From a virus: a stretch of 43,091 nucleotides of DNA. The position numbers were made by a program, and so were the translations under genes. The DNA lies in the IMG/VR virus record IMGVR_UViG_3300037189_005709, positions 1 to 43,091 of that record; one strand, given 5' to 3'. Of this stretch, positions 25,538 through 33,990 are shown in pieces. How positions within the stretch are numbered: the stretch's first letter is position 1; each line of letters starts with the position of its first letter. The notes under the pieces were generated by a model. It saw only the letters and a list, made by a program, of their open reading frames with translations, was not told where the DNA came from and did no database searches.

Positions 25538-25545
25538 TATAAATA
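25538..25545 (+). promoter_or_regulatory. TATAAATA late promoter motif before the curli-like region
   Basis: Exact octamer in the short gap after the membrane-protein gene. ATG 25551 starts 5 nt later, so a T4-type late start would be at or just inside the codon (leaderless) or serve genes further downstream. Confidence 0.5.
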
Positions 25546-25550
25546 GGTAT

Positions 25551-25829
25551 ATGGGAGATATACTAAAACTAGTTGCCGATTTAGGGTTTCCAATTGCTGC
25601 AGCTGGTGCGGCAGGTTACTTTGTGTTCCTTACAGTTAAGTTCATCCTCGATGGTGTTACTGGATCTGTAAAGGGCATGTCAAATATTATCAAAGCTTTG
25701 GATAGACGTGTAGCAGCCATGAACCATGATGTTATCCGTATTGATACAAAAGTAAGTCATGCATTAGGCATCCCACCTGATCTAGATAGGATTGCAAGAG
25801 CTGAGCAATCAGATGCAAGAAGAGATTAA
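25551..25829 (+). CDS. YvrJ-like small membrane protein, copy 1
   Basis: 92 residues. DLGFPIAAAGAAGYFVFLTVKFILDG is one membrane segment led by the GFPI motif typical of YvrJ-like phage proteins, followed by an amphipathic helix (IKALDRRVAAMNHDVIRIDTKV). The gene at 25978 encodes a paralogue with the same layout (KYGFPIIAAGGLGYFVYYIWKW). YvrJ-like proteins sit near holins and are suspected membrane or holin-associated factors. A weak AGGT lies just before the ATG. Its stop overlaps the next ATG (TAATG). Confidence 0.75.
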   Translation: MGDILKLVADLGFPIAAAGAAGYFVFLTVKFILDGVTGSVKGMSNIIKALDRRVAAMNHDVIRIDTKVSHALGIPPDLDRIARAEQSDARRD

Positions 25830-25978
25830 TGAGACTATTAATCATACTATTATTGATTAGTGGCATAGCATACGCTGAACAACCACGTAAGAAGAGAATA
25901 CATGTACCACCAAACTGTATGATTATTGGTGGACAACTAAGATGTTGGGTTATAGATCCACTACCAACGGAAGAATAA
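25829..25978 (+). CDS. 49-residue exported peptide
   Basis: ATG 25829 overlaps the stop of the YvrJ-like gene (TAATG), and the stop overlaps the ATG of the second YvrJ-like gene (TAATG), so it is tightly coupled. A signal peptide MRLLIILLLISGIAYA is followed by a 33-residue mature part, EQPRKKRIHVPPNCM to LRCWVIDPLPTEE, with a strongly basic start and two cysteines nine residues apart that could form a disulfide in the periplasm. No known family. Its place just ahead of CsgF/CsgG hints at a secretion-accessory role, but that is inference. Confidence 0.75.
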   Translation: MRLLIILLLISGIAYAEQPRKKRIHVPPNCMIIGGQLRCWVIDPLPTEE

Positions 25979-26262
25979 TGGAAGAGTTTGCAGATTTAGT
26001 TAATAAGTATGGGTTTCCCATTATAGCAGCAGGCGGATTAGGGTACTTCGTCTACTATATTTGGAAGTGGGTAACTGAGGAAATCGACCCTGTAATAGGT
26101 GAATCAAATAAGGTATTGATTGAACTGATCGATCGTGTTAGGATGTTAGATAACGATCTTATTAGACTTAATCAAAAAGTGAACGTCATTTTATCTCTAA
26201 GAGACAAGGAACAAGATGAAGTTCACAAGAAGCCTAATATTTTTACTGATAACGACAAGTAG
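25978..26262 (+). CDS. YvrJ-like small membrane protein, copy 2
   Basis: 94 residues from ATG 25978 (MEEFADLVNKYGFPIIAAGG); an upstream ATG at 25942 lies inside the exported-peptide gene and is less likely. One membrane segment (GFPIIAAGGLGYFVYYIWKWV) is followed by an amphipathic helix (ELIDRVRMLDNDLIRLNQKV) matching the layout of the copy at 25551. The tail is charged. Its 3' end overlaps the CsgF gene by 47 nt. The duplicated pair around a tiny exported protein suggests a three-gene membrane unit. Confidence 0.78.
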   Translation: MEEFADLVNKYGFPIIAAGGLGYFVYYIWKWVTEEIDPVIGESNKVLIELIDRVRMLDNDLIRLNQKVNVILSLRDKEQDEVHKKPNIFTDNDK

Positions 26263-26656
26263 CGCCCATGCGGAGCTTACGTATCAGTTTAAGTCTCCAT
26301 CCTTCAACGGGATAGGATATAGTTCTCACGTACAAACGATCGAGAACACAGAGAGCACGCGTAAGAAAGCAATAGAAGACGCGAAGCTACAAGCAGCAAA
26401 GGACGCGGCCGCCGCAGCTAAAAATACAAACCTAGCTAAGTTCCTTAACAACTTTGAGAGCAGAGTCTATGCTCAACTATCTACACAATTAATCAATAAC
26501 CTTTTTGGTGAGAATCCACAGAACAGTGGTACCGTTACCATTGAAGGTAACACCATAGTATATGTTAAGAATGCTGACTCTATATCATTAACGGTTACGG
26601 CTGCAGATGGCACTGTAACTCAAGTAGATATACCAATCGGAACATTAAAATTCTAA
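26216..26656 (+). CDS. csgF: CsgF-like curli assembly factor
   Basis: 146 residues, about the length of bacterial CsgF. The signal peptide MKFTRSLIFLLITTSSAHA is followed by a mature start ELTYQFKSPSFNGIGYSS, matching the CsgF N-terminus (E-L-x-Y-x-P-x-x-P-S-F) that inserts into the CsgG pore and forms its second constriction. The C-terminal part GTVTIEGNTIVYVKN and ITVTAADGTVTQVDIP-like strands are beta-rich. CsgF couples the secretion pore to the amyloid nucleator at the outer surface. RBS AAGGA at about 26206 supports ATG 26216 despite a 47-nt overlap with the upstream gene. csgG follows with a 1-nt overlap. Confidence 0.9.
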   Translation: MKFTRSLIFLLITTSSAHAELTYQFKSPSFNGIGYSSHVQTIENTESTRKKAIEDAKLQAAKDAAAAAKNTNLAKFLNNFESRVYAQLSTQLINNLFGENPQNSGTVTIEGNTIVYVKNADSISLTVTAADGTVTQVDIPIGTLKF

Positions 26657-27423
26657 TGAAAAAGTTACTGTTAGTTTTGTTATGTGTTTTCTTGACAGGA
26701 TGCGGACCGATCCCTATCAAGAAGGATGCAGAACTTATACCTGAAGTTAAGGTTAAGAAACACATCCCGCCACCAAAGGATGGTAAGATCGTAGTTGCAC
26801 TATATGGGTTTGGTGATAAGACTGGACAAAGAAAAGATTCAGGTAATATAGCTAAGTTCTCAACTGCTGTAACCCAAGGCGGCGAGACAGTATTAATCAA
26901 ATCATTACAAGAAGCTGGTGATGGTAAGTGGTTTAGGATCGTAGAACGTGTAGGTCTTGATAACCTACTTAAAGAAAGACAACTAATTCGATCTGCAAGA
27001 GAAGAGGCAAATGATCATAAAGGTCTTGGTCCTATACTCTATGCGGGCATGATGATTGAAGGTGGCATAGTTTCTTATGACACCAATATACGAACAGGTG
27101 GTATTGGAGTTCGATATCTCGGGATCGGTCCTGATCAACAGTATCAGGAAGACGTAGTGACTATCAGCATTCGTGCTATTAGTACACAAACGGGTGAAGT
27201 ATTATTAACAGTGAATACTCAGAAAACTATATTAAGCTATACGATAGGTGTTGCAGTATTTAAGTTCTTTGATAATGGCACTAAAAACTTTGAGTCTGAG
27301 ATTGGTATATCACAAACTGAAGCAAGTATCCACGCTATCAAGTCTGCTACAGATAGGGCAGTGGAAGAGTTAATTATTCAAGGTGAAAAACAAGGAATGT
27401 GGCAGTTTAAACAGGAGAAATAA
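26656..27423 (+). CDS. csgG: CsgG-like curli secretion pore lipoprotein
   Basis: 255 residues. The lipoprotein signal MKKLLLVLLCVFLTGC has Cys16 as acyl-anchor. The body follows E. coli CsgG: IVVALYGFGDKTGQRKDSG, NIAKFSTAVTQGGETVLI, WFRIVERVGLDNLLKERQLI, AGMMIEGGIVSYDTNIRTGG, GVRYLGIGPDQQYQEDVVTI, VNTQKTILSYTIGVAVFKFF. CsgG forms a nonameric outer-membrane channel for unfolded amyloid subunits. The channel-gating residues cannot be assigned by eye, but the membrane hairpin segments (SYDTNIRTGG and KTILSYTIG) are present. The gene sits between csgF and a curlin-repeat gene. A phage csgG is expected to act in the host outer membrane late in infection. Confidence 0.95.
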   Translation: MKKLLLVLLCVFLTGCGPIPIKKDAELIPEVKVKKHIPPPKDGKIVVALYGFGDKTGQRKDSGNIAKFSTAVTQGGETVLIKSLQEAGDGKWFRIVERVGLDNLLKERQLIRSAREEANDHKGLGPILYAGMMIEGGIVSYDTNIRTGGIGVRYLGIGPDQQYQEDVVTISIRAISTQTGEVLLTVNTQKTILSYTIGVAVFKFFDNGTKNFESEIGISQTEASIHAIKSATDRAVEELIIQGEKQGMWQFKQEK

Positions 27424-27425
27424 CA

Positions 27426-28121
27426 ATGAAAAGATCCACCACTCTCGTGATGGGTTTATTATTGGCAGGCAGTGCATTGGCAGACGGAGGCAACTCAGTC
27501 TATATAGATCAGACAAATGCTGATCAATCAGCTGTAACTATTACGCAAACTGGTTCTAACAACAACGTTGGAAGTGCAAACACTACAACAGGTGATCCAT
27601 TTGTAATTGATGGTAACAGTATGTTCTTGACTATTACACAAGATGGTATGAACAACAGCATCTTAGGTAATTTTATTGGTGGTAACTCAACAGCTACTAT
27701 TAGTCAAATTGGTAACAGCAACTCTACATTATTAAACTATGGTAACTTTGGTACAAGTTCTGGTTCATTGGGTATCACATTCAATGGTTCGAACAACAGT
27801 TCTATCTTAAACATCGGTACATTACGTAACTCAAGTAATTACATTTATAACTTAGACATAACTGGTGACACTAATACTGTTACAAGCACAGTTAACAGTG
27901 CTTATACCACTAATAACTTTAGTTTAGCCGGTGATCTAAATAAAGTGATTACTACACAAACTGGTTTTGGTACACTAGCTGGTGGTGGTCATAATATCAA
28001 TACTAATGTAATTGGCGATAATAATAATATCACTGTGAGTCAAGATGGCAACACAATTGCAAATAGCGCGGTTATCAACCTTACTGGTTCTAACTCTGCT
28101 ATTACTGTTACACAACACTAG
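27426..28121 (+). CDS. Curlin-repeat amyloid-like secreted protein
   Basis: 231 residues. Signal peptide MKRSTTLVMGLLLAGSALA, then an Asn/Ser/Thr/Gly-rich chain with degenerate curlin strands: SVYIDQTNADQSAVTITQTG, MFLTITQDGMNNS, TATISQIGNSNS, NITVSQDGNTIANS and a final SAITVTQH. The x-I-x-Q-x-G-x-x-N pattern is that of CsgA/CsgB, here with about eight to nine irregular repeats. It is the expected cargo of the CsgG/CsgF pore encoded just upstream (2 nt gap). Its last 77 nt also encode the signal peptide of the FecR-domain protein in another frame. Amyloid formation is inferred. Confidence 0.9.
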   Translation: MKRSTTLVMGLLLAGSALADGGNSVYIDQTNADQSAVTITQTGSNNNVGSANTTTGDPFVIDGNSMFLTITQDGMNNSILGNFIGGNSTATISQIGNSNSTLLNYGNFGTSSGSLGITFNGSNNSSILNIGTLRNSSNYIYNLDITGDTNTVTSTVNSAYTTNNFSLAGDLNKVITTQTGFGTLAGGGHNINTNVIGDNNNITVSQDGNTIANSAVINLTGSNSAITVTQH

Positions 28122-29112
28122 TCAAGCAGCAATTGGTTCAGTAACTGAGCAAAAAGGGAATGCATCCATCACGCACAATAAGGCGTCGGTGGATGCCAAA
28201 CCCAAATCCCCTATAGATTCAAATGATTTAGTACAGACCGGTGCAGGTGTGGTCGGTATTACTTTTGAAGACAACACACAGGTTCGTGTAACCGAGAATT
28301 CAAAACTACTCATAGATGACTTCGTCTATGATCCAAAAAATAAGGGTGCTGGTAAGCTAGCTCTTAAGGTAGCTATGGGCACAGTACGATATGCATCAGG
28401 TAATATCGCTCATGAGAACAATAAAAATGTGGCTATCAATACACCTACCGCAACTGTGGCTGTACGTGGTACTGCTTTTACTATGACGGTTGACGAGGTG
28501 GGAAAGTCACTCATCATCTTACTTCCCAACAAAGACGGATCAGTTGGCATGATCGATGTCATCACCGCAGTCGGTACAGTAACACTCAACCAAGCATTCC
28601 AAGCTACAACTACTTCATCCTCAGAAGTTAAACCATCCAAACCAGTAACATTGTTATTATCAGAGTCAGCTATCGATAACATGCTTATCGTTAAGCCTCC
28701 AAAAGAAGTGCTTAAGCAGATTACAGAAGAGATCAAAGATAAGTCTGGATCTTCATTGGATTTTAATGGGCTGGATACAAACCTATTAGATGCTAAAGTA
28801 TATAAAGATCCGTACAAAGACTTTGCAGAACTAGACATCAACTTTCTCGATGGAGAGAACCTAACTAATGCGTTTGATAACCAACTACTAACAGCATTCC
28901 AAACCGGATACAATGCATTGACTGGAACTTACATATTCGATAAGACATCTCACTATGTAGTTAATAGGCCAAAGAACAATCAAAATGCCACGATATTAAT
29001 AAATAAAGACACTGGATATCTAATAAATATTAATCAAGGCGGATCATCTACAACGGTGCAGTCAAAGGATAGCACTACGAATACTATAACGATTAATCAG
29101 AGGGGCAATTAA
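28045..29112 (+). CDS. Exported FecR-domain protein with curlin-like C-terminal tail
   Basis: 355 residues. A signal peptide (STLLVLTLLLLLHNTSQA, cleavage near residue 28) is encoded entirely within the end of the curlin gene. The FecR domain follows: GNASITHNKASVDAK, NDLVQTGAGVVGITFEDNTQ, LALKVAMGTVRYASG, NVAINTPTATVAVRGTAFTM. A helical/linker region leads to a tail with curlin-like strands (GYLININQGGSSTTVQ and NTITINQRGN). FecR domains sense or scaffold at the periplasmic side. The curlin tail suggests a CsgB-like nucleator or anchor for the amyloid. Bacterial genomes often pair FecR proteins with CHASE2 cyclases, and one is encoded at 30670. Confidence 0.88.
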   Translation: MATQLQIARLSTLLVLTLLLLLHNTSQAAIGSVTEQKGNASITHNKASVDAKPKSPIDSNDLVQTGAGVVGITFEDNTQVRVTENSKLLIDDFVYDPKNKGAGKLALKVAMGTVRYASGNIAHENNKNVAINTPTATVAVRGTAFTMTVDEVGKSLIILLPNKDGSVGMIDVITAVGTVTLNQAFQATTTSSSEVKPSKPVTLLLSESAIDNMLIVKPPKEVLKQITEEIKDKSGSSLDFNGLDTNLLDAKVYKDPYKDFAELDINFLDGENLTNAFDNQLLTAFQTGYNALTGTYIFDKTSHYVVNRPKNNQNATILINKDTGYLININQGGSSTTVQSKDSTTNTITINQRGN

Positions 29113-29113
29113 T

Positions 29114-29770
29114 ATGCAAAACATTTGGCGTGGAAGAGAACTTAAGATATACGATGAGCTTAAGTCTATACAACAAGCATTAAAGGATGAGTTCTTTGCA
29201 GCGCATCCAAACTATGAAGGTGAAGGTGGATACACCTATATCGGAAACCAATATCCAAGACCTGACAGTTGGGTAAACTATTGTGTTAAGTATGAGTTTG
29301 ATGGATCATCTGACGAGATTAAAGCTGCAGCTGTACTAGCAGGTCAAGCAGCCAAGATTAAATTCCCAACAGCTGCAGCTTTGGTAGAAAAGTATGGAGA
29401 TGATTGTAACTGTGCATCTTATGCCGTGTTTGATGCTAACTCTGTTATACGTAGACATTCAGGTATAGAAAACCGTGAAGCTAAGATGGTTCGTATACAC
29501 ATTCCACTATTAGTACCTGAAGGAGATATTGGGTTTGAAGTAGATAGTGAAGAGGTAACATGGGATGATATATTTGCTTTTGACAACCAAAAGCTACATA
29601 GCGCATGGAATAATACAAATGAGAAGCGTTTAATATTCATCATTGATGTATCTCGTACAGTATTAGATCTGCCACCAGGAACTCCATGGATAGGTAAAGA
29701 AGCTGAAGCTGCATATATTGAAACGCATGCATTTGACAAGAGCGAATTCCCAGCTATAGAGATTAATTAA
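29114..29770 (+). CDS. Aspartyl/asparaginyl beta-hydroxylase-like oxygenase
   Basis: 218 residues. SVIRRHSGIENREAKMVRIH, LLVPEGDIGFEV, DIFAFDNQKLHSAWNNTNEK and RLIFIIDVSR follow the Asp/Asn hydroxylase fold: first metal His in RRHSG, distal His in KLHSAWN, Arg after it for 2-oxoglutarate. Such enzymes hydroxylate Asp/Asn in protein domains or act on small molecules. Starting 1 nt after the FecR gene, it belongs to the curli-like operon and could modify its exported, Asn-rich products before secretion; this is inference. An early-type promoter follows its stop codon. Confidence 0.85.
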   Translation: MQNIWRGRELKIYDELKSIQQALKDEFFAAHPNYEGEGGYTYIGNQYPRPDSWVNYCVKYEFDGSSDEIKAAAVLAGQAAKIKFPTAAALVEKYGDDCNCASYAVFDANSVIRRHSGIENREAKMVRIHIPLLVPEGDIGFEVDSEEVTWDDIFAFDNQKLHSAWNNTNEKRLIFIIDVSRTVLDLPPGTPWIGKEAEAAYIETHAFDKSEFPAIEIN

Positions 29771-29771
29771 T

Positions 29772-29800
29772 TTTACTTTAATTGAATATTGGGATATAAT
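29772..29800 (+). promoter_or_regulatory. Early-type promoter overlapping a start codon
   Basis: TTTACTTTAAT, 17-bp spacer, TATAAT. The -10 overlaps ATG 29799 itself, so RNA started here would lack that codon. It may serve the genes at 30542-32682 or an alternative downstream start. Confidence 0.7.
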
Positions 29801-30545
29801 GAAAAAGTATAAGACCATTTGTATATCAGATACACACTTGGGGGCTGGTGAAGCTAAGGCTGATCTGCTTAATAATTTCCTTAAGCATAACGATTGTGAG
29901 AACCTATTCCTTATAGGTGACATCATTGATGGTTGGAAGATCCATCTAAACAAATGGAGATGGAAGCAAAGCCATACCAATGTTATACGTAAGATCTTAG
30001 GGTTTAGTAAACGCGGGACTAGGGTTGTTTATGTTACTGGAAACCATGATGAGTTCCTTAGACCATTCGTAAATTACTTCTCGCTTGGTAAGAACATAGT
30101 CTTATGTAACCAAGCTGAGTATACAGACTTGAATGGTCGTAGGTTCCTTATAACACATGGTGATATGTTTGATGGTATCACTCGTATGGCAAAGTGGATC
30201 TCTGTATTAGGTGATCATGCCTATGACTTTGTATTATGGGTAAACACTAAGTTTAACTATATAAGACATAGATTAGGATTTAGTTATTGGTCACTAAGCC
30301 GTTTCCTTAAACGAAACGTTAAGAAAGCTGTAGGCTTTGTGTTTAAGTTTGAAGAGACCATAACCGATTACTGTGAAAAGAAAGGTTATGATGGAGTTAT
30401 ATGTGGTCATATACATACTCCTGAGATCAAAGTAATACGTGATATTATCTATATGAATGACGGGGACTGGGTAGAATCATGCTCAGCATTGGTCGAGACT
30501 CACGAGGGTGAGTGGAAGATAATTTACTGGAACAAGATAAAATGA
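29799..30545 (+). CDS. LpxH-like calcineurin-fold metallophosphoesterase
   Basis: 248 residues, the length of bacterial LpxH (UDP-2,3-diacylglucosamine hydrolase). Metal motifs appear in order: ISDTHLG, GDIIDGW, VTGNHDEFLRP, LITHGDMFDG and ICGHIHTPE. YMNDGDWVESC lies near the end. The inserted basic helical region (LGFSYWSLSRFLKRNVKK) resembles the LpxH lipid-substrate cap. It could alter lipid A synthesis or act on another phosphodiester, so I call it LpxH-like rather than LpxH. It overlaps the basic-peptide gene by ATGA. Confidence 0.87.
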   Translation: MKKYKTICISDTHLGAGEAKADLLNNFLKHNDCENLFLIGDIIDGWKIHLNKWRWKQSHTNVIRKILGFSKRGTRVVYVTGNHDEFLRPFVNYFSLGKNIVLCNQAEYTDLNGRRFLITHGDMFDGITRMAKWISVLGDHAYDFVLWVNTKFNYIRHRLGFSYWSLSRFLKRNVKKAVGFVFKFEETITDYCEKKGYDGVICGHIHTPEIKVIRDIIYMNDGDWVESCSALVETHEGEWKIIYWNKIK

Positions 30546-30673
30546 AAGTTAAAAAATTAATTCGTAAGATGTATCTAGCATGCGTTAGACATCAAAAAAA
30601 GAAACAAAAGAAGCTTTGGCTTAAATCACTAAAGAAAAGTTTACAACATAAGAAGACACAAGTTATCCAATGA
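30542..30673 (+). CDS. 43-residue highly basic protein
   Basis: ATG 30542 overlaps the stop of the phosphoesterase gene (ATGA), and its own stop overlaps ATG 30670 of the cyclase gene (ATGA). About 40% of the residues are Lys/Arg/His: MKVKKLIRKMYLACVRHQ, then KKKQKKLWLKSLKKSL. It is amphipathic and basic, so it could bind nucleic acid or the inner membrane surface. No family is recognisable. The double ATGA coupling argues that it is real. Confidence 0.72.
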   Translation: MKVKKLIRKMYLACVRHQKKKQKKLWLKSLKKSLQHKKTQVIQ

Positions 30674-32682
30674 AAAGACTATTATCACCATGGTTTGCTC
30701 TATTAACTTTAGCCTTATTAATAGGAGTTAGAGCAACTGATCCATCATTTGTACAGTCAGTTAGGTTAAGATACTTTGATACACTGATTACAAGTAAACC
30801 CGTAGTACAATCTAAACAAGTCCATGTCGTAAACATCGATGATGCATCAATTGAAAGACTTGGTCAATTTCCATTTCCAAGGAGCCAATATGCAAACATT
30901 ATCGAGGACCTTTACCAACGCAATGCTGGTCTTGTTGTTTTTAATCTTTTTATGCCTGACACTGATCGCTTTGGACGCGATGCCAACTTGGCTGATAGTC
31001 TTGCTAGACACCCTGTCGTCTTACCTCAGGTAGCAACAGATCAGAAACAAAAAGCACTTGCATTTAGACCTGGAGTCAGTGAGATCGGATCACCAGCACA
31101 TGACTTCACTGTAGATTATCCTGGTATCCAACCTAATATATCATTATTTAACAACAGCGCTGCTGGAATAGGAGTCGTAAATGTCTTACCCGAAATTGAT
31201 GGTGTTACTCGCCGTATCCCTATGGTCGTATCAAGCGGAGGCTTGCTCTACCCAAGTATTACTCTCGAAACTTTGCGTGTCGCAGTCGGAGACCCAAGTT
31301 TCCAAGTTAAATCTTCCGATAGAGGAATCGAAGCTGTTCGCATCCCTAAATTCGCCAAGATCCAAACCGACAGTATCGGTCGTATCTGGATTGACTGGAG
31401 CGCGAGTCCAATTCAACACTCTCTTGTGGACCTCCCCAAATCGTTTGATGGAGGTATCGTCATCGTTGGCCTCACAGCCCGTGGGCTCAACAACCCAGTT
31501 GCAACCCCTCGAGGTGGACTCTTTCCTCATTACGTTCAAGCGAACGTTCTAGACACACTCACATCAGGCACAGTCATATCGCGACCTGATTGGGCAGATG
31601 GTGCAGAAGTACTTGCGACCATCATCTTATCAATCGTATTAATCTTATTAACAAGGTGGAAGTATGGAATTATTCTTATTCTTGGTATTTTGGGCGGTCT
31701 TTATAGTGTGGGTAGCGCGATATTCACTCACTACGGCTATCTTATTGATGTTCTCTTCCCTATTATTATCCTTTCTGTGGTATACGCTCATGCCTATACT
31801 GTCAAATTTATCACCGAGCTTAACGCAAAGCTTAGGATAAAGAAACAATTTGGGACATACCTATCACCAGCAATGGTTGAGAAGTTACAAAAGAACCCAG
31901 ATCTGCTACAACTTGGTGGTGATAGTCGCGAGCTAAGCATAATGTTTACAGACGTTCGTGGCTTTACTACCATCTCTGAACACTATGGAGCAGATGTACA
32001 AGGTCTAACTAAGATTATGAACCGTTACATGACAGCTATGACTCGTAAGATCATAGACAACAACGGTACACTTGATAAGTACATCGGTGATGCGCAGATG
32101 GCTTTTTGGAATGCACCATTGGATGACAAAGATCATGCTATCAATGCAGTTAAAACAGGATTGGAGATGTTAGATGACTTGGATAGATTCAATGAAGAGA
32201 TTACTAAAGAAGGTATTCCTCCTTTTGGTATGGGCCTGGGTGTTAATACCGGGGTCGTCGTTGTGGGTAATATGGGCAGTGAGCAGCGTTTTGACTATAC
32301 CTGCCTCGGTGACTCAGTCAACCTCGCAAGCCGTCTTGAAGGCCAATCAAAGAATTATGGAGTTCGAATCGTCCTTGGTCAACGCACAGCAGAGCTCGTC
32401 AAAGACACATACCCAGTAGTTGAGATGGATACTATAGCGGTTAAAGGAAAGACTCAGGGTGTGAAGGTGTATACGATTGGCAAGACTCAGGGTTATATGC
32501 ATGATGAGTTCCTCAAAGAGTATTATAGAGGAAACTGGTCCAGAGCTGAGGGGTGGCTCCAGGAGCTCTTGGCACTGGGGGACGATGTAACCATTAGTGA
32601 CTACTATGAAAAGATGCTGGAGCGCATCCGGGAGGGCCTACCCCCTGAATGGGACGGCGTATATAGGGCTACCTCCAAATAG
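30670..32682 (+). CDS. CHASE2-domain class III adenylate cyclase
   Basis: 670 residues. One N-terminal membrane segment (FALLTLALLIGV) is followed by a periplasmic CHASE2 sensor domain (about 30-300; VHVVNIDDASIERLG, QFPFPRSQYANII, GIGVVNVLPEIDGVTRRIPM, VIVGLTARGLNNPVATPRG) and three membrane helices (about 310-375). The cyclase catalytic domain holds IMFTDVRGFTTISEHYG and GTLDKYIGDAQMAFW (metal Asp pair and adenine-selecting Lys), then RFDYTCLGDSVNLASRLEG (Thr, as in bacterial adenylate cyclases, plus Asn/Arg). All catalytic positions look intact, so it should make cAMP in response to a periplasmic cue. A terminator closes the operon. Such a cyclase is very rare in phages as far as I know. 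Confidence 0.93.
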   Translation: MKRLLSPWFALLTLALLIGVRATDPSFVQSVRLRYFDTLITSKPVVQSKQVHVVNIDDASIERLGQFPFPRSQYANIIEDLYQRNAGLVVFNLFMPDTDRFGRDANLADSLARHPVVLPQVATDQKQKALAFRPGVSEIGSPAHDFTVDYPGIQPNISLFNNSAAGIGVVNVLPEIDGVTRRIPMVVSSGGLLYPSITLETLRVAVGDPSFQVKSSDRGIEAVRIPKFAKIQTDSIGRIWIDWSASPIQHSLVDLPKSFDGGIVIVGLTARGLNNPVATPRGGLFPHYVQANVLDTLTSGTVISRPDWADGAEVLATIILSIVLILLTRWKYGIILILGILGGLYSVGSAIFTHYGYLIDVLFPIIILSVVYAHAYTVKFITELNAKLRIKKQFGTYLSPAMVEKLQKNPDLLQLGGDSRELSIMFTDVRGFTTISEHYGADVQGLTKIMNRYMTAMTRKIIDNNGTLDKYIGDAQMAFWNAPLDDKDHAINAVKTGLEMLDDLDRFNEEITKEGIPPFGMGLGVNTGVVVVGNMGSEQRFDYTCLGDSVNLASRLEGQSKNYGVRIVLGQRTAELVKDTYPVVEMDTIAVKGKTQGVKVYTIGKTQGYMHDEFLKEYYRGNWSRAEGWLQELLALGDDVTISDYYEKMLERIREGLPPEWDGVYRATSK

Positions 32683-32712: not shown

Positions 32713-32747
32713 AAGCTATATAAGTCTATGATTTATATAGCTTTTTT
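32713..32747 (+). terminator. Rho-independent terminator after the cyclase gene
   Basis: A perfect 11-bp stem AAGCTATATAA / TTATATAGCTT with a 9-nt loop is followed by a T run. It marks the end of the long transcript through the curli-like and cyclase genes. Confidence 0.9.
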
Positions 32748-33727: not shown

Positions 33728-33836
33728 TATTAGTGTAGGGCTTTGTGCCACTTAATACATATATGCGGACATATCCTAGGTTACATGCTTCCGCGGGTTA
33801 CCGGTCGTACAACCGGGCAGAGTCCTACACTAATAT
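33727..33836 (+). ncRNA. Putative structured RNA closed by a 13-bp helix
   Basis: Positions 33727-33739 pair perfectly with 33824-33836 (13 bp, ATATTAGTGTAGG / CCTACACTAATAT). Inside, GCGGA (33765-33769) can pair with TCCGC near 33790-33794, and CCGGT (33801-33805) with ACCGG (33812-33816), giving a three-helix junction. The space holds no credible ORF. The closing helix takes in the first two bases of tRNA-Arg, linking it to tRNA processing. It matches no riboswitch or tmRNA I can recognise. Candidate classes are a phage-type cis-regulatory RNA or a tRNA-operon leader. Confidence 0.6.
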
Positions 33837-33911
33837 GTCTATAGCTCAGTTGGATAGAGCACGAGCCTTCTAAGCTCGGGGTCATTGGTTCGAATCCAAT
33901 TAGGCATACCA
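33835..33911 (+). tRNA. tRNA-Arg(UCU)
   Basis: A full cloverleaf with encoded CCA: acceptor ATGTCTA / TAGGCAT, D stem GCTC/GAGC, anticodon stem CGAGC/GCTCG with loop CTTCTAA (anticodon TCT), T arm ATTGG-TTCGAAT-CCAAT. It reads AGA, a frequent Arg codon in these genes. Confidence 0.95.
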
Positions 33912-33913
33912 TC

Positions 33914-33990
33914 GGGCCTATAGCTCAGTTGGTCAGAGCAGAGGACTCATAATCCTTTGGTCCTTGGTTCAAACCCAAGTGGGCCCACCA
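33914..33990 (+). tRNA. tRNA with CAU anticodon, probably tRNA-Ile2
   Basis: Cloverleaf with encoded CCA: acceptor GGGCCTA / TGGGCCC, D stem GCTC/GAGC, anticodon stem GAGGA/TCCTT with loop CTCATAA, T arm CTTGG-TTCAAAC-CCAAG. The ACTCATAATC...TTGGTC stretch resembles bacterial tRNA-Ile2, whose CAU wobble base is modified to lysidine to read AUA. Elongator Met remains possible. AUA and AGA decoding would suit AT-rich genes. Confidence 0.93.

Follow-up and report, generated by a model that had tools for sequence, protein, structure and literature searches.

A curli-like module of a T4-like phage, most likely expressed late, combines a FecR protein bearing a curlin-type final strand with a CHASE2 adenylate cyclase

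Introduction

Why would a phage carry the parts of a bacterial fibre-secretion system next to a FecR-domain protein and an adenylate cyclase? The question is raised by IMGVR_UViG_3300037189_005709, a single IMG/VR virus record of 43,091 bases that we analyzed at full length and refer to as the window. That the module lies within phage DNA follows from other genes of the window, which encode a T4-type gp41 helicase (63.7% identity to the helicase of Methylophilales phage Melnitz), a primase, a ribonucleotide reductase, a head protein and an endolysin; by its gene content, the window is a fragment of a T4-like phage. Our tentative answer is that the module forms a late T4-like operon through which the infected cell would display envelope-anchored curli-like fibres, with the FecR protein acting as a CsgB-like anchor that is read by the cyclase.

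A previous sequence-only reading of the window had recognized curli-like secretion and an intact cyclase, and both are supported here. The run of open reading frames (ORFs) that it named is present where it placed them, with Pfam families matched above their cut-offs, and the terminator with which it closed the run corresponds to a terminator-like stem and T run. It had also taken the complete set, FecR and cyclase included, to be new, but Pelagibacter phage HTVC008M and Melnitz carry that set, and the module has already been described. A phage csgF-csgG cluster was first reported in PMC7029224, and PMC9599517 gave the order HK-CsgF-CsgG-CsgA/B-FecR-second curlin-adenylate cyclase in pelagiphages of the Podoviridae and Myoviridae, saw its expression in metatranscriptomes, and annotated FecR as an iron-dependent regulator, together with a histidine kinase. 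What is new here is the reading of the FecR tail and protein as an anchor, the older bacterial FecR-cyclase pair, the late promoter, and the lack of a matched kinase domain in the probable 'HK' proteins.

Results

The phage FecR protein ends in a curlin-type strand

From its signal-peptide-like start, the FecR protein runs through a FecR domain into a C-terminal beta domain, for which strands are predicted at residues 303-352 (AlphaFold mean predicted local distance difference test score, pLDDT, 82.5). Residues 58-211 fit the periplasmic domains of PupR/FecR proteins (6ovk; Z 15.5, root-mean-square deviation (rmsd) 2.4 over 133). No cytoplasmic N-terminal anti-sigma domain was matched in the phage protein, in which the signal-peptide-like stretch leads into the FecR domain. 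A strand of the form hydrophobic-x-hydrophobic-x-Q lies within the last 12 residues of 43 of 44 nonredundant FecR tails; among control ORFs of these loci the count is 11 of 403, and among shuffled tails the rate is 6%. Mostly 21-23 residues upstream, which is the length of a curlin repeat, comes another strand of this form, and Q352 is among the 23 invariant columns of 48 FecR sequences sharing 33-84% identity with that of the window.

When its profile was compared with that of the phage curlins, the FecR tail fell on their C-terminus at a score of 20.9, where 20 column shuffles gave 12.5 at most; comparisons using other parts of FecR or CsgF/CsgG profiles scored no higher than 14.7. The tail strand also resembles the C-terminus of E. 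coli CsgB (...QSQMAIRVTQR), whereas CsgA ends otherwise. The C-terminus of CsgB matters for both nucleation and attachment.

At its other end, the FecR model (residues 27-122) resembles the 'cell surface anchoring domain' of the M. primoryensis adhesin (5ix9; 27% identity, Z 7.0, rmsd 2.1). Domains of this kind are described as keeping adhesins in the outer membrane by retention in the periplasm (PMC13090378), and we found no literature joining FecR, RTX and retention. The C-terminal domain of FecR, which was barely probed, had no fold match among the matches listed. We conclude that the phage FecR is, by sequence, an exported protein with a curlin-type final strand, and that it is probably not an iron regulator but an envelope anchor of the fibre.

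FecR and the CHASE2 cyclase are paired in bacteria

The sequence of the cyclase places its CHASE2 domain outside the cytoplasm. D428, K470, D474 and R555 are kept in 93/93 cyclases, as is T, S or D at position 544, and N551 is kept in 86/93; the metal-binding Asp pair, the Lys and the transition-state Asn/Arg of an intact enzyme are all present in the window. In the Melnitz cyclase (L003, 11535-13586), Ser replaces the catalytic Asn and Asp replaces the adenine-specifying Thr, as also occurs in a few relatives (7-8/93).

We searched 190 alphaproteobacterial genomes with the cyclase and 190, mostly the same ones, with the FecR alignment. A FecR match lay within 6 kb of 27 of the 85 best bacterial CHASE2-cyclase matches, where a crude expectation based on FecR density is about 0.7. 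Twelve of these 27 cyclase-adjoining FecR frames are at least 800 residues long, and of seven FecR neighbours looked at, three have cadherin, Big, RTX or Calx-beta domains; two of the three adhesin-type proteins match 5ix9 by sequence (2.6e-6 and 4e-4). None of the 20 bacterial FecR-cyclase loci that we read contains csg genes. FecR-CHASE2 clustering has been reported independently in Campylobacterota (PMC9239204).

The 19 bacterial loci found to hold the nearest CsgG proteins, mostly from Sphingomonadales and Erythrobacter with some from Microbulbifer and metagenome-assembled genomes, contain csgF and csgG, plus curlins where the flank was long enough. Within the fetched flanks, they contain no FecR, no cyclase and no counterpart of the two small membrane proteins that open the phage module. 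We therefore rejected bacterial curli loci as the source of FecR and the cyclase, neither of which was found in the 19. These bacterial comparisons extend to the nearest relatives and to genomes sampled from one class, with chance expectations that are density-based; judged from these genomes, the pairing of FecR with CHASE2-cyclase is an older, bacterial one.

The secretion parts match those of curli

Signal-peptide-like N-termini are present on CsgF, the curlin, FecR and a 49-residue peptide, the last being the tiny exported peptide of the sequence-only reading. The mature N-terminus of CsgF (F..P.F.G) is kept in 99-101 of 101 members and the CsgG lipobox in 99 of 104 relatives. The curlin was modelled by AlphaFold as an all-beta repeat structure (mean pLDDT 85.5), and its family profile matches solved curlin structures (8c50, 1.5e-16; CsgA fibril 8enq, 5.5e-5), so that the structural check proposed with that reading came out in favour of a curlin fold. 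A Foldseek search with the curlin model returned no significant match. The VIA rows for the model gave a broad mix of beta-helices and solenoids and were not used.

The window thus holds what marks curli, or type VIII, secretion: a CsgG pore with a lipobox, CsgF and a curlin-repeat substrate. We infer that the curlin protein would form curli-like fibres exported via CsgG/CsgF. As had been noted, csgE is missing: a search for CsgE matched neither the window nor any of 11 related or bacterial records, while the E. coli control was positive. CsgE was likewise unmatched in two alphaproteobacterial genomes, so it is not defining for the wider curli family. The CsgE gate is present in E. coli but is not universal. 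The absence of csgB holds as far as annotation goes, but the FecR tail may supply the function of CsgB.

The module most likely forms a late operon

The T4-type late promoter element TATAAATA occurs seven times in the window, always on the + strand, a count that is uninformative by itself since 24 of 100 shuffles reach seven. Its placement is more telling. Of 72 modules that open with the small membrane pair, 34 have it at -150 to +30 of the first gene, where 1.7 were expected from strand density, and mostly at -12/-13 relative to that gene; the corresponding counts are 0/97 at CsgG starts, 0/91 at FecR starts and 3/87 at cyclase starts. Given this placement at the first gene, the promoter pattern most likely marks the module as a late operon. 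The module opens upstream of 25829, where it had been thought to start, with the late promoter and the first small membrane gene. Late-promoter prediction failed in the genomes studied in PMC7029224. In the window (25538-25563), the end of the element and the first gene's ATG are five bases apart, which would put the start of the transcript at this ATG or close to it. The mRNA would then be leaderless, unless the gene truly begins at the TTG at 25563, which has GGGAG in front.

The two small proteins (a and b in Table 1) have about 92-106 residues and one hydrophobic stretch each. From their position, they are probably the published 'histidine kinases', and no kinase domain was found in 56 members of the family. 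One had been called YvrJ-like; it has no Pfam YvrJ match and belongs to phrog_18771. Among 50,697 phage records, relatives of protein b occur in module-carrying phages only, and a search of the 190 alphaproteobacterial genomes, run without a positive control, found none of the small proteins. In six loci (L116, L127, L136, L141, L147 and L163), the small-gene pair stands apart from the csg genes, nearby on the opposite strand, and in some of these one or more other genes lie in between.

The module recurs across viral loci with a variable slot

Two scans of IMG/VR returned hundreds of relatives of the module. About 74 distinct viral loci have CsgG, FecR and cyclase, and the same gene order recurs among them; CsgF is present in 69 of the 74, the two small membrane genes in 55 and a second curlin in 36. 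With the same order in many contigs, chance or an assembly artefact is ruled out, including the one-off join of bacterial to phage DNA named earlier as a way in which the module could prove spurious. The ratio of nonsynonymous to synonymous substitution (dN/dS) is 0.02-0.22 against close relatives for every comparable gene, with many dS values near saturation; the hydroxylase had no counterpart in this comparison. By these ratios, the comparable module genes are under purifying selection.

Between FecR and the cyclase lies a slot that in other modules holds glycosyltransferases or RimK-like enzymes, and that seems to take envelope-modifying cargo. RimK-like ATP-grasp ligases occupy it in some modules (L091:7981-8868 and L070:14516-15397). 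Among the loci compared, the window alone has a hydroxylase in the slot, and an LpxH-like gene is found there in 11 of the 74 loci. The name 'LpxH-like' is only partly upheld: the protein matches the Metallophos family but scores below each of the two LpxH equivalog cut-offs (48.9 vs 134 and 36 vs 190 bits). In several relatives (L016, L106, L116 and L070) the gene is followed by a GT4-type glycosyltransferase, resembling the plcP-agt lipid remodelling genes of marine bacteria, in which a PlcP-like phospholipase gene adjoins glycosyltransferases (PMC4796936). That the phosphoesterase at 29799-30545 may be a PlcP-like phospholipase is a lead only.

Some neighbouring features also stood out. Genes for tRNA-Arg(tct) and tRNA-Met(cat) lie just 3' of the module (window 33835-33990). 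One related contig, L161, has two consecutive CHASE2-cyclase matches beside the module. A 1,499-base record labelled 'Salmonella phage' (OR851715.1) encodes a CsgG with 38.6% identity to that of the window; it is short and perhaps host DNA.

Table 1. Features of the module and its flanks in the window.
Feature	Position	Strand	Evidence or remark
T4-type late promoter element TATAAATA	25538..25545	+	exact match
Small single-transmembrane protein a, phrog_18771	25551..25829	+	9.1e-35; paralogue of protein b
49-residue exported peptide	25829..25978	+	signal-peptide-like N-terminus; conserved in closest relatives only (3 matches)
Small single-transmembrane protein b, phrog_18771	25978..26262	+	likely start 25978, not 25942
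CsgF	26216..26656	+	PF10614, 4.6e-17
CsgG outer-membrane pore lipoprotein	26656..27423	+	PF03783, 7e-54; lipobox LTGC
Curlin-repeat fibre protein	27426..28121	+	PF07012 Curlin_rpt, 2.7e-6, 4 stretches
Exported FecR-domain protein	28045..29112	+	PF04773, 5.9e-9
FecR C-terminal beta domain (residues 286-352), final curlin-type strand ITINQ	28900..29100	+	
Asp/Asn-hydroxylase-like protein, variable slot	29114..29770	+	PF05118 Asp_Arg_Hydrox, 1.3e-16
Calcineurin-like phosphoesterase (LpxH/PlcP-like), variable slot	29799..30545	+	PF00149 Metallophos, 2.2e-13
53-residue basic ORF, doubtful	30512..30673	+	ORF alone
CHASE2 adenylate cyclase, class III	30670..32682	+	CHASE2, 3.2e-40; Guanylate_cyc, 2.4e-21
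Intrinsic-terminator-like stem, 14 pairs, T run	32713..32743	+	

Discussion

In the mechanism that we propose, the curlin would exit through CsgG/CsgF, and the C-terminal strand of FecR would also enter the pore while its folded FecR domain is held in the periplasm, a retention modelled on that of RTX adhesin retention domains at TolC-like pores. Outside the cell, the FecR strand could stand in for CsgB by templating the fibre or tying it down. Through its CHASE2 domain, the cyclase would read FecR or the occupancy of the pore, and cyclic AMP (cAMP) would report fibre assembly to the infected cell. In this view, the FecR-CHASE2-cyclase pair was joined to a csgF-csgG-curlin set, and the closest bacterial relatives of that set lack the pair. 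A sharper form of this proposal makes FecR a hybrid nucleator and anchor, in which the periplasmic FecR/retention domain stays behind, the curlin strand passes through CsgG and replaces CsgB as the seed of the fibre, and the CHASE2 cyclase converts the state of the secretion pore to cAMP; we regard this form as possible but doubtful.

Several observations weigh against anchored, sensed fibres. No clumping was seen in Melnitz-infected cells (PMC9004378), and displaying fibres so late has no obvious benefit. The proposal also assigns no role to the two small membrane proteins. The HHalign probability of the match between tail and curlin is low (9.8%) and the motif is short; the phage FecR does not match 5ix9 by sequence, and the structural Z score is only middling. 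The FecR tail could alternatively be an export signal common to curlin. Indeed, the same motif ends 20 of 34 curlin tails, as would be expected if the final strand were a mere shared recognition signal for CsgG/CsgF and FecR a secreted accessory, not an anchor. We think this improbable, as E. coli CsgA is exported by CsgG without such a final strand, and the FecR domain resembles a retention domain, not a secreted passenger. The published annotation, in which FecR regulates the module in response to iron or a signal (PMC9599517), draws on a real likeness, since the protein fits the periplasmic part of the anti-sigma regulator PupR (Z 15.5). However, its signal-peptide-like start comes with no matched anti-sigma domain, the 56 members of the small 'HK' family show no kinase domain, and a regulator model leaves the conserved C-terminal curlin strand unaccounted for; we judge this annotation very unlikely.

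Late expression argues against an early block to superinfection and somewhat for a role near lysis. For Melnitz, a lysis-pore function has been proposed (PMC9004378), in which CsgG/CsgF would form a gated outer-membrane pore that depolarizes the cell or aids late exit, with the small proteins as holin-like helpers. The late promoter, the unmatched CsgE gate and a weak resemblance of the small proteins to holins (phrog_4898, E 0.0045) are all consistent with such a pore, but the curlin and the FecR tail, conserved alongside the pore across the compared loci, would be needless for a bare pore, and the window encodes a separate endolysin. We therefore consider a lysis-timing pore unlikely. A different kind of proposal, made earlier in both PMC7029224 and PMC9599517, is that the module serves sibling capture or the exclusion of competing phages. 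It concerns the benefit to the phage and is compatible with the anchored-fibre mechanism; the glycosyltransferases, phosphoesterase and RimK-like enzymes of the slot suggest envelope remodelling. The lack of clumping with Melnitz (PMC9004378) counts against this role, as does late expression, a poor fit for exclusion unless lysis is delayed, and we hold it to be a possibility on the doubtful side. The phage may gain from anchored fibres, envelope remodelling or lysis timing.

The module is widespread in aquatic phages, and its published annotation, as an iron regulator with histidine kinases, may misdirect experiments. Clues to what the phage builds and when come from the FecR tail, from the late promoter and from the older FecR-cyclase pair, and they also suggest what bacterial FecR-CHASE2 pairs sense. 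If the hybrid nucleator-anchor form of our proposal is true, these bacterial pairs would be general sensors of anchored surface fibres.

The closest known system is the pelagiphage type VIII secretion module (PMC9599517; HTVC008M; Melnitz, PMC9004378; PMC7029224), which has the same gene order, from the small pair (the probable 'HK') through CsgF, CsgG, curlin and FecR to the cyclase, with about 36-57% identity between aligned proteins. It has a second curlin, whereas the window lacks one and has the hydroxylase and LpxH-like enzyme in that slot. E. coli curli (csgBAC/csgDEFG) has CsgG, CsgF and curlin repeats in common with the window, and the FecR tail is like the CsgB C-terminus, but CsgE is unmatched, CsgB, CsgC and CsgD genes were not seen in the window, and the window adds FecR and the cyclase. 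Alphaproteobacterial curli loci (Sphingomonadales, Erythrobacter) likewise have csgF-csgG followed by curlin genes, with CsgG identity to the window of up to about 42%, and differ in that the flanks fetched contain no FecR, cyclase or small pair. In bacterial FecR/CHASE2-cyclase clusters (Alphaproteobacteria; Campylobacterota, PMC9239204) the FecR gene adjoins that of the CHASE2 cyclase, as in the phage, although FecR is sometimes part of an RTX, cadherin or Big-domain adhesin in place of having a curlin tail. Finally, the periplasmic retention domain of LapA-type adhesins (5ix9; PMC13090378) resembles the first part of the phage FecR domain, but those adhesins use type I secretion via a TolC-like pore and are regulated by cyclic di-GMP and LapG.

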